A DNA stretch of 37,204 bases, taken from positions 1-37,204 of the forward strand of contig JAISKT010000039.1 in assembly GCA_031261295.1 (NCBI GenBank), given 5' to 3'. A program made the translations under genes and the position numbers. Positions 1,723 to 26,798 of this stretch are shown one piece after another (position 1 is the first letter of the stretch; each line of letters begins with the position of its first letter). Origin of the DNA: Candidatus Symbiothrix sp. GTDB taxonomy: Bacteria > Bacteroidota > Bacteroidia > Bacteroidales > Azobacteroidaceae. The notes beneath the pieces are model-generated. The model did not search any database. It was not told the DNA's origin and saw only the letters and a program-made list of their open reading frames with translations.

Positions 1723-2243
1723 CACTCCCTGTCGAAGAATGGATTTTTGGAGGAGGCGCTGATAGGAATCGCGATGACCGTTTGGCATCCGCCGAGCCAA
1801 TCCAATTTTTGCGCAGCCAATCCTACCGAAAACATTGTGCGCGAATCGACCCGCCAATCGGCAGCCGTAGCGCAAGCCGAACCTACGGCAATACCCACAT
1901 CAATCGAATTCAAAGCGCAAGGAACCTGTTCCGGTTTTTCCGCGCAAGTGGCAAAACCACAATGTGCGCAATTCAAGCCTTGAAGTCCCGCGTGTGTTCC
2001 GATTAAAACCACGACTTCTGCAGAAAGCACATTTTTTGCATCCCGGAACATAAATTTCAAACCCGTATGTTCGCCCAATTCGTGCGTTTTTTCGGACAGG
2101 GTTTTTATATCCTCACCTTCCACGGCTATCACTTCGATAATATCTAAACCCTTGGCTTTTGGGGCCGTGCGTGCGGCGGTCATCATCTGTTTAGCCACTT
2201 CAACCAAATGCGCGTGACGTGTTTTTCTTTCGTTCAATAGCAT
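1722..2243 (-). CDS. DUF2148 ferredoxin-domain protein
   Basis: 173 aa; Cys-rich core NCAHCGFATCAEKPEQVPCALNSIDVGIAVGSA is typical of DUF2148. Confidence 0.85.
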   Translation of the reverse strand: MLLNERKTRHAHLVEVAKQMMTAARTAPKAKGLDIIEVIAVEGEDIKTLSEKTHELGEHTGLKFMFRDAKNVLSAEVVVLIGTHAGLQGLNCAHCGFATCAEKPEQVPCALNSIDVGIAVGSACATAADWRVDSRTMFSVGLAAQKLDWLGGCQTVIAIPISASSKNPFFDRE

Positions 2244-2265
2244 AATCCGTTTCTTGTTTTTCTAA

Positions 2266-24586: not shown

Positions 24587-24708
24587 AAAGACATAATTCA
24601 TTAAAAGAAAAAGCGTTAGGAACTTTTATTCTTGTACCCGAAACTTCGACAATTTCAAAAACGAACAAGAATAAGTAAGACGTATGCTACCCTTACCTTT
24701 TTTTATTA

Positions 24709-24739
24709 TTTCCGGGGTTGGGTCGAGCAACCCCGGAAA
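24709..24739. other. 12-bp perfect hairpin TTTCCGGGGTTG-GGTCGAG-CAACCCCGGAAA
   Basis: Located 3' of the minus-strand surface-protein operon. Confidence 0.85.
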
Positions 24740-24811
24740 GTCAAGAGCGTACAATACCTAATCACAATAAAATTATGATTTAAAGCCACTCATTTGATAG
24801 CGACGGTGGTT

Positions 24812-25711
24812 TCACTGTTTCAATAAGCACGGCCTTAGGATGTTTTCACCAATGTCGAATTCGCTGCTCCAACTTATGAGGCTGAGGACACCCGTCCCAC
24901 ATTGGCTGTAGGCGGAGACCGACCCTGAAGTCCATATTTGCCCCGATTTTCCCGGCCAAAATACGTCATAGTTGTAATAAGTCGTCACCCCATTGACTGG
25001 CCTATTTTCATACGGCATGCATTCACTCGATTTCATCATTCCCACATAGTAGTATCTCGCGTCAGGATTAGTGCTGTATATATATTGACCCGACACTTCA
25101 ACGTTCACAACAGTGATTGAACTGTGATCTTCATGTCCACCGTCTGTGGTTGTCACCGTAATGGTAGCACTACCATTTCCTATAGCCGTTACCAAACCGC
25201 TTGCACTAACCGTTGCCACAGCTGTATTGCTTGATTCCCAGGTCACGGCTTTGTTTGTGGCAGTAGTTGGAGCTACCGTAGCAGTCAACTGTTGGGTGGT
25301 CAAAGTAGTAAATGCTTTTGAAGTCGGGCTTACCGTTACACCGGTAACCGGGACAGCGGCGTTTATAACATGCCACTGCGCTCCATCCCACACATAAAGA
25401 CCTGCGCCATCGGCCAGTTCGCCGTTCGTATTATACACGATCAAGCCTTGCAAATCGCTATCAACGATAGAAGCCTTGTTGGTAAATACATCCGGAATTT
25501 CATTGAGGTTGTCAATATTTACGTTTAAAGGGAGTAAGCCGAGATTTGACCCTTCAGGAGTCGTCAAATCCAGCAATGCTCCCGTCACAGCGCTCTCCGT
25601 TCCGCCGATATGTACCTGCGCTTGCATTGCAGCAGGCAAAACCAGCCATAAGGCGGCAAAACATGCCGCCCAAAGTTTTTTTGTTCTCTGTTTCATCTTC
25701 ATTCTTTTCAT
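24812..25711 (-). CDS. Secreted surface protein: N-terminal surface domain + BIG2 Ig-like domain + C-terminal unknown domain
   Basis: Signal peptide; QVHIGGTESAVTGALLDL...GLIVYNTNGELADGAGLYVWDGAQW; BIG2 repeat VTGVTVSPTSKAFTTLTTQQLTATVAPTTATNKAVTWESSNTAVATVSASGLVTAIGNGSATITVTTTDG. Confidence 0.75.
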   Translation of the reverse strand: MKRMKMKQRTKKLWAACFAALWLVLPAAMQAQVHIGGTESAVTGALLDLTTPEGSNLGLLPLNVNIDNLNEIPDVFTNKASIVDSDLQGLIVYNTNGELADGAGLYVWDGAQWHVINAAVPVTGVTVSPTSKAFTTLTTQQLTATVAPTTATNKAVTWESSNTAVATVSASGLVTAIGNGSATITVTTTDGGHEDHSSITVVNVEVSGQYIYSTNPDARYYYVGMMKSSECMPYENRPVNGVTTYYNYDVFWPGKSGQIWTSGSVSAYSQCGTGVLSLISWSSEFDIGENILRPCLLKQ

Positions 25712-26040
25712 TAATTTTTCTTCCAAATCGGTTTCCATCCGTCTGTTGCACCCGTCCAGATATAAATACCTTCCGCGCCGATTGCGGTATTATATACAAT
25801 CAGTCCGACAAGTTTGGTAGCCGCATCAGGTTCCGTAGAAAACGCTTCCACACTGTTTAATGTCAAACTGTTTACTTTAGGCAATAACAGACCACCTACA
25901 TAACCATTCCCATTGTTCAAATCCAGGACAGCGCCTTGGGTGGGTACATCCGTATCAACTCCACCGATACGCACTTGTGCATTCACACTGGTTGCACCCA
26001 TAACGATGAGTGTCAGCACTAAAAAAATCATCTTTTTCAT
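25711..26040 (-). CDS. Secreted short paralogue of the N-terminal domain of the downstream gene
   Basis: MKKMIFLVLTLIVMGATSVNAQVRIGGVDTDVPTQGAVLDL...LVGLIVYNTAIGAEGIYIWTGATDGWKPIW; start codon chosen at signal peptide. Confidence 0.7.
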   Translation of the reverse strand: MKKMIFLVLTLIVMGATSVNAQVRIGGVDTDVPTQGAVLDLNNGNGYVGGLLLPKVNSLTLNSVEAFSTEPDAATKLVGLIVYNTAIGAEGIYIWTGATDGWKPIWKKN

Positions 26041-26247
26041 ATTACTTGTATAATTTAAATTTGTATTTCGTATAAGACGCATAGCGCCTGTTTTATAAAA
26101 GGGCAAGGCAACCGGTAATTATAAATTTAATAAGAATGAAAAAAATCTTGTGGTTGCCTGTACCCTAAGTGATGGGCGGGCGCGTTCAAACAGTTAAAAA
26201 TGAGAGCGAAAAAACCATTGAACTGACACACCCGCCAATTTCCTTTG

Positions 26248-26335
26248 CCCGTCATTTCGAACGAAGTGAGAAATCTAAAGCTAAGCCGTAAGCCCTACGG
26301 AACACCATAGATTTCTCGCTACGCTCGAAATGACG
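26248..26335. repeat. Palindromic repeat CGTCATTTCGAACGAAGTGAGAAATCT...AGATTTCTCGCTACGCTCGAAATGACG
   Basis: ~27-bp arms, imperfect inverted repeat. Confidence 0.85.
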
Positions 26336-26433
26336 ATTGTATGTGTTTGTGAAAATACATCTGACTTGTTCTGCATGTCTGTAGAATTTATGCCTCCAAG
26401 TCCCTGAGAAGCGGTTATTTAAAATAAAAAACG

Positions 26434-26590
26434 TGGGACCCAAACTTTATTTGTGACAGAGGTTTTCGACGACCCACACAATCAAATAAGTTAGACCCAC
26501 GAATCAACGTGAGCGCTAAACTATTTATTCTTGATTGTGTAGAAGTGTCGAAATTTCTGTCACAAGAATAAAAGCTTACGCTTTTTTTTA
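26434..26590 (+). ncRNA. Candidate structured element: ~135-nt imperfect palindrome ending in AAAAGC-TTAC-GCTTTT-TTTT
   Basis: TTTATTTGTGACAGAggttTTCGAC...CACACAATCAA pairs with TTGATTGTGTagaagtGTCGAAatttCTGTCACAagaATAAA; T-rich 3' end. Could equally be a DNA element. Confidence 0.35.
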
Positions 26591-26798
26591 TTTTATAAAA
26601 TACTATCTATTTTGTAATAATAGTTGTTTAATTAATTGACAAAAGTAGTAATTGTTTTCATATAAACAAAGGAATTACCAAAATTTAACGAATGAATAAA
26701 TTATAACAAACTAATATAACAACCCAAACAGCCACAACGGAATTTTATTCCGGCGTATGGATGTCGAACCGGATCAACAATAAAATCCAAAAAACTAC

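Follow-up and report, generated by a model that had tools for sequence, protein, structure and literature searches.

A predicted leader RNA with two alternative folds upstream of surface-protein loci in Candidatus Symbiothrix sp.

Attenuators place a terminator and an antiterminator, mutually exclusive, in the leader that precedes the regulated gene. By analogy with trp-type leaders, T-boxes and riboswitch expression platforms, the element described here, from a 37,204-nt stretch of Candidatus Symbiothrix sp. DNA (the window), would set the pairings S1:S2 and S3:S4, the latter followed by a U-tract, against a competing pairing S2:S3, and it occupies the same leader position. It departs from those systems in that no conserved leader peptide or aptamer was identified, the competing fold contains three hypervariable self-matching helices, and many kinds of secreted-protein genes follow. 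Classed among leader RNAs, it stands out by a self-matching barcode and by its expansion to about 77 surface loci.

Several candidate structured RNAs of Bacteroidetes have been found by genome comparison, among them Flavo-1, Bacteroidales-1 and Bacteroides-1 (PMC2864571). The element matches none of the RNAs from that study that carry Rfam numbers; GUCCY-hairpin and Bacteroides-2 are listed there without such a number. Candidate RNAs of gut Bacteroidetes such as HMP2_1032 (106 bp, near TonB; PMC8040213) are palindromic and terminator-like, as the element is, but shorter; they are set beside it by description only. When covariance models were used, no family of Rfam 15 matched the element in the window, at the loci of 15 relatives or at 7 distant loci, and no description of it was found in the open-access literature, a set that subscription papers mostly fall outside. 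Within what could be searched (Rfam 15 and that literature), the element is undescribed.

Two kinds of DNA-level system also invite comparison. Like the attC sites of integrons, the element forms long imperfect hairpins in which pairing persists despite variation in sequence; unlike them, it is selected as RNA on one strand and does not flank cassettes, and no arrays were seen among the 77 loci. With phase-variable or cassette-based surface antigen systems it shares a large family of surface-protein loci in a single genome. Here, however, every locus has its own promoter-like sequence and leader, and no inversion site, expression site or recombinase is in evidence.

The leader element and its copies in the genome

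A conserved 18-base piece immediately following the element has 77 occurrences in the genome, where the reversed control has none, and either of the inverted stretches at the window locus, used as a query, leads to dozens of places; such searches give lower bounds (at least 77 copies). The sequence common to these places starts sharply about 120 bp 5' of the hairpin and comprises a promoter-like pair, the 170-nt hairpin, a smaller hairpin with GGGACTTG and the start codon. In 55 of the 77 copies the promoter-like pair reads TTGG/TTGA, exactly 19 nt, then TA(C/T)(C/T)TTTG, an arrangement that the reversed control never gave. The element lies on the sense strand, between this promoter-like sequence (recognized from the consensus) and the start codon. 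Nearly all copies precede one or two same-strand secreted-protein genes of the FISUMP/Big_2 type: a secreted protein of about 110 residues, often accompanied by a larger one with Ig-like and FISUMP domains. Upstream genes are unrelated between loci. The surface loci have clearly spread through the genome, and would have done so together with the leader. In the window, the parts are as follows.

26041-26689, minus strand: conserved leader block in full, sharply bounded on the 5' side (GTTAA) and running to the first start codon (77-copy conservation profile)
26640-26670, minus strand: promoter-like pair TTTG, 19 nt, TACTTTTG, of the Bacteroidetes -33/-7 type (read directly; assigned by consensus only)
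26426-26593, minus strand: full leader RNA element (model R1, 174.9 bits, E 3.3e-29; 37 bits on the plus strand)
26563-26583, minus strand: S1 (AAGCGTAAGC) and L1 (TTATTCTTG), 5' strand of the left hairpin (L1:L2 and S1:S2 co-vary across species)
26540-26562, minus strand: hypervariable V1, V2 and V3, extent approximate (near-exclusive Watson-Crick pairing with 26454-26482)
26508-26538, minus strand: L2 (CAAGAATAA) and S2 (GCGCTCACG), 3' strand of the left hairpin (pairing and covariation tests)
26483-26501, minus strand: S3 (CGTGGGT) and R1 (ACTTATTTG); S3 pairs with S2 (apex) or S4 (terminator)
26454-26482, minus strand: hypervariable V3', V2' and V1' (own partner best in 75 of 75 copies)
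26426-26453, minus strand: R2 (CAAATAAAG), S4 (CCCACG) and U-tract, 3' strand of the terminator-like hairpin (R1:R2 and S3:S4 more than 99% paired in A1)
26380-26412, minus strand: small conserved hairpin with GGGACTTG (CGCTTCTCAGGGACTTGGAGGC), kept in copies and relatives by inspection
25711-26040, minus strand: P0002, small secreted protein of the expanded family (no Pfam family at cut-off, no NCBIfam match)
24812-25738, minus strand: P0001, secreted protein with a Big_2 Ig-like domain (Pfam Big_2, 1.1e-18)
24605-24690, plus strand: 5' half of the element by itself, comprising only the left hairpin, in the 3' flank of the surface genes and antisense to them (by alignment)

The element measures about 168-170 nt and reads, in order, left half (S1, L1, V1, V2, V3, L2, S2), apex, right half (S3, R1, V3', V2', V1', R2, S4) and U-tract; the window copy is among the 75 aligned in A1. 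The stems of the GGGACTTG hairpin are changed in some copies and relatives (e.g. GCTTTT..AAAAGC). Larger sister genes of P0001 end in a FISUMP domain, above cut-off.

The long leader holds further inverted repeats. Two conserved ones, GGCGGGCG..CGTCCGCC and AGGGTACAGGCAACC..GGTTGCCTTGCCCT, sit between element and start codon at positions of about 500-680 in the 77-copy consensus. At 26250-26335, inside the window leader, a 28-bp inverted repeat (I2, CGTCATTTCGAACGAAGTGAGAAATCTA) resembles a dispersed palindrome in its own right; only some sister leaders contain any sequence there.

Some loci are irregular. Complete elements lacking a surface gene occur at L098 (C150, near 14967) and L125 (C284, near 3281); these are solo copies or remnants. 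At L120 (C273, near 26504) the left half is deleted, so that promoter and right half adjoin, and this copy would keep only part of the switch. Families of 3' flanks, about 130-270 bp long and with strong hairpins, are common to several loci (after the stops of L095, L103, L121 and L124), suggesting that each duplication took in the 3' end of the locus as well. Since many contigs (e.g. C158, C231, C318 and C386) end no more than a few hundred bases from the element, 77 is probably an underestimate of the surface loci.

The window locus had drawn attention in the first-pass annotation by an inverted similarity spanning 24608-26587, taken there for the terminal repeats of a mobile or invertible cassette. 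The similarity is real and well above chance, though it had been described incompletely: the local alignment between 24605-24677 and the reverse-complemented right side extends over about 73 columns, further than first noted, and scores 57, against 36 at most in 300 dinucleotide shuffles. The I1 arms (24623-24654 and 26543-26574) are 84% complementary, and I5 and I6 extend I1. Two paralogous secreted-protein open reading frames do lie between the stretches (25711-26040 and 24812-25738, both on the minus strand), and the repeat does recur beside surface-protein genes with different cargo, in at least 77 copies; both stretches are members of this genome-wide repeat. What did not hold is their role as cassette ends. 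The right-hand stretch is the sense-strand 5' half of the leader RNA, that is, the 5' half only of the longer element at 26426-26593 (minus strand), whose second half makes the hairpin pair I7 and others; the left-hand stretch has no second half. Moreover, an inverted half-copy on the 3' side is present at two loci only, the window and C161, against 77 leader copies, and the two "ends" are thus not a general feature of surface loci. The loci examined gave no indication of inversion or target duplication, nor of a recombinase associated with them. The neighbourhood after prfC differs among the relatives that could be read, with no identifiable empty site there. The earlier reading of the locus is partly supported: dispersal of the gene family together with its leader has support, and a mobile or invertible cassette has not.

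The left-hand stretch would be a truncated, inverted leftover in the 3' flank. Its near-twin, 95% identical, is at 2151-2256 (minus strand) of C161 (L148), the only other such flank found; it likewise lies in the 3' flank of a Big-type surface gene, one that runs off the contig end. The 3' flanks common to other surface loci are without a half-copy. We also considered the half-copy as a trans-acting RNA and rejected this, the best pairing of its loop with the 75 right loops reaching -15.5 kcal/mol as compared to a mean of -23.9 kcal/mol between loops of the same copy.

Pairing in two mutually exclusive folds

The element can be drawn in two ways: as one extended hairpin (fold 1), or as two separate hairpins, the second of which ends in a terminator-like stem and U-tract (fold 2). 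In the 75 copies of A1, 99.0% of the cells of the extended fold are paired, as compared to 75.5% in shuffled alignments, and 540 cells contain pairs changed on both sides, as compared to 151. The covariation score is 0.673 (0.198 when shuffled and at most 0.10 when slid), and shifting the partner by a single base destroys the signal. Nearly all of the change is carried by V1-V3, with 1387 Watson-Crick, 14 G-U and 3 A-C cells. For the alternative fold, 97.8% of the cells are paired, against 37-54% when slid (A1). Within the genome the alternative stems are conserved and do not co-vary; their covariation comes from other species.

For the comparison across species, each segment was scored with its own partner and with the partners of other sequences, taking relatives and distant Bacteroidota together (n = 72). 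This swap test retains shared ancestry, and its negative controls (e.g. S2:S4 and L2:R2) are flat. The model used to fit alignments A3 and A5 contains V1-V3 and S2:S3 and is without S1:S2, L1:L2, R1:R2 and S3:S4.

The strongest preference for the own partner is that of V1, V2 and V3 (z of -28, -20 and -28). Pairings of both folds follow: S2:S3 (-9.6) and L2:R1 (-6.8) on one side, S3:S4 (-6.4), S1:S2 (-5.9), L1:L2 (-8.7) and R1:R2 (-9.7) on the other. Four combinations, L1:R2, S1:S4, S2:S4 and L2:R2, are not clearly below chance in the 72 sequences. Substitutions in the three S segments that share partners go together: where S3 has changed from U to C, S2 and S4 have both changed from A to G (four of four cases), and the copies furthest removed (L263 and L267) keep the same pairing relation with quite different letters in S2, S3 and S4. 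Right halves folded alone give mean z values of -3.45 and -4.0 relative to shuffles; values below -2 were obtained for 29 of 30 distant and 39 of 42 nearer sequences. Altogether, these comparisons show that the predicted terminator stem S3:S4 and the competing S2:S3 are both conserved, and that they are mutually exclusive.

The mismatches tolerated in the stems have a direction. Changes in conserved stems are one-way, from A to G opposite U, leaving a G-U pair on the sense strand. In the stems of the alternative fold, G-U outnumbers the A-C mismatch 150 to 9; across species the corresponding numbers are 51 to 0 for S2:S3 and 26 to 1 for S3:S4. A DNA palindrome would have no strand preference, and the excess of sense-strand G-U thus points to RNA and not to DNA ends. 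As judged from these substitution patterns, the element is shown to be selected as RNA on the sense strand.

A possible attenuator and its alternatives

We consider it probable, on the strength of the sequence comparisons, that the element is a structured RNA in the 5' leader of surface genes, where it would act as a transcription attenuator with two exclusive folds and with V1-V3 helices of its own in each copy. With the left and right halves folded as separate hairpins, the GC-rich stem of the right half followed by the U-tract would resemble an intrinsic terminator. Were S3 to pair with S2 instead of S4, V1-V3 would zip the two halves into the long hairpin and the terminator stem would be taken apart. 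Depending on the winning fold, RNA polymerase would either stop before the surface genes, at the S3:S4 hairpin pair, or read on, the long hairpin with S2:S3 letting it pass. A protein, a ligand or the speed of the polymerase are candidate signals for the choice. In an energy calculation the long hairpin is favoured by about 16 kcal/mol (-57.6 as compared to -41.5), hence kinetics or a factor would have to favour the terminator fold. Certain species have an interrupted U-tract (CTTCGT, CTTTCT); in these, termination may thus be weak, or translation or RNA decay may be the step that the switch controls. The folds give sharp predictions on the effects of swapping one arm, and then both.

The same helices could be put to a different use if local stems and V1-V3 helices formed together, in a kissing or paranemic complex serving as a protein scaffold or mRNA protector and not as a terminator switch. 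Such a joined complex would accommodate the covariation of L1:L2, R1:R2 and V1-V3 alike, the short local stems that the conserved GAAA..TTTC and GGGT..ACCT flanking V2 can form (A1, A3), and the failure of L1:R2, which the complete long hairpin requires, to co-vary. Yet covariation is also seen for S2:S3 and L2:R1, which exclude S1:S2, S3:S4, L1:L2 and R1:R2; since co-varying but incompatible pairings indicate that folds alternate, we regard the joined complex as unlikely. Copying is another way for two arms to match. Template-switch repair of the palindrome, with one arm copied during replication, would give the near absence of G-U in V1-V3 without selection on RNA, but it would also have evened out the conserved parts of the two arms, which stay different in all copies, and L1:L2, R1:R2 and S3:S4 co-vary with the G-U bias of RNA. 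Template switching may contribute to how V1-V3 change; that it accounts for the match is very improbable.

The smallest chance goes to a DNA-level mobile or recombination element (MITE, REP-like or attC-like hairpin), with the surface genes as cassettes moved in trans. It would fit the high copy number, the long palindrome with variable arms as in attC sites, the dispersed loci with a sharp 5' edge and the inverted half-copies at two loci. It is at odds with the tolerance of G-U on the sense strand, with the fixed place between promoter and start codon and with the 1-10 copies before unrelated genes in most other genomes, and no arrays are seen and the inverted partner is confined to two loci.

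A peculiarity of the proposed attenuator is the individuality of its variable helices. No two of the 75 copies have the same V1-V2-V3 triple, and the pairing energy of the left loop with its own right loop averages -23.9 kcal/mol, as compared to -8.7 kcal/mol with foreign ones, the own partner being best in 75 of 75 copies. Copies are likewise distinct in a second genome, the Dysgonamonadaceae MAG Cc175_bin72 (32 of the 33 aligned). Under independence, and given the many alleles, 0.04 pairs of matching triples are expected; chance alone makes most triples distinct, so that distinctness by itself is no proof of selection for it. Variable helices are normal in structured RNAs; the unusual features are the strictness of the V1-V3 pairing and the number of copies in one cell. 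Having its own V1-V3 in each copy would allow dozens of leaders to work in one cell without pairing with each other. We tentatively envisage, as a possibility that we rate below even, a phylum-wide leader RNA with a private barcode in each copy and no cross-talk, through which this lineage would have given some 80 surface genes individually working switches. If true, the barcode is relevant to the question of how cross-pairing is prevented among paralogous RNA switches.

Distribution of the element in Bacteroidota

Model R1 finds the element in 55 of 100 relatives, representing 22 of 57 genera, and in 32 of 297 genomes sampled from the phylum Bacteroidota, several complete genomes included. 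Copy numbers in relatives are lower bounds, at most 28 places having been scored per genome; among the places scored, most other genomes have 1-10 copies, located before unrelated genes. A same-strand open reading frame begins within 500 nt of 31 of 40 copies in relatives, mostly 45-70 nt away, and most of the remaining copies have too little contig sequence left downstream. Many of the downstream proteins in relatives have a signal-peptide-like start, others resembling HlyD-type secretion or small HTH proteins (by eye); in distant genomes TonB/SusC-like proteins, also named by eye from sequence, occur downstream. The element would be a regulatory RNA absent from the catalogues, found across a phylum dominant in animal guts and preceding outer-surface and secretion genes whose control is poorly understood.

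Among named records, an exact version of the element is present in MAGs labelled Dysgonamonadaceae, Tannerellaceae and Prevotellaceae, which we infer from their isolate names to be termite-gut bins. Viral contigs gave no match to the exact element pattern, a single exact pattern being a weak test of phage carriage. A specialised NusG-type antiterminator was considered as a partner and set aside, as there is no correspondence between the count of NusG-domain genes and that of the element. L162, which comes from another family of the order, has two further features near an element copy, at 2704-2738 and 214-289: a DUF805b RNA scoring slightly under the gathering threshold, and a group II intron domain.
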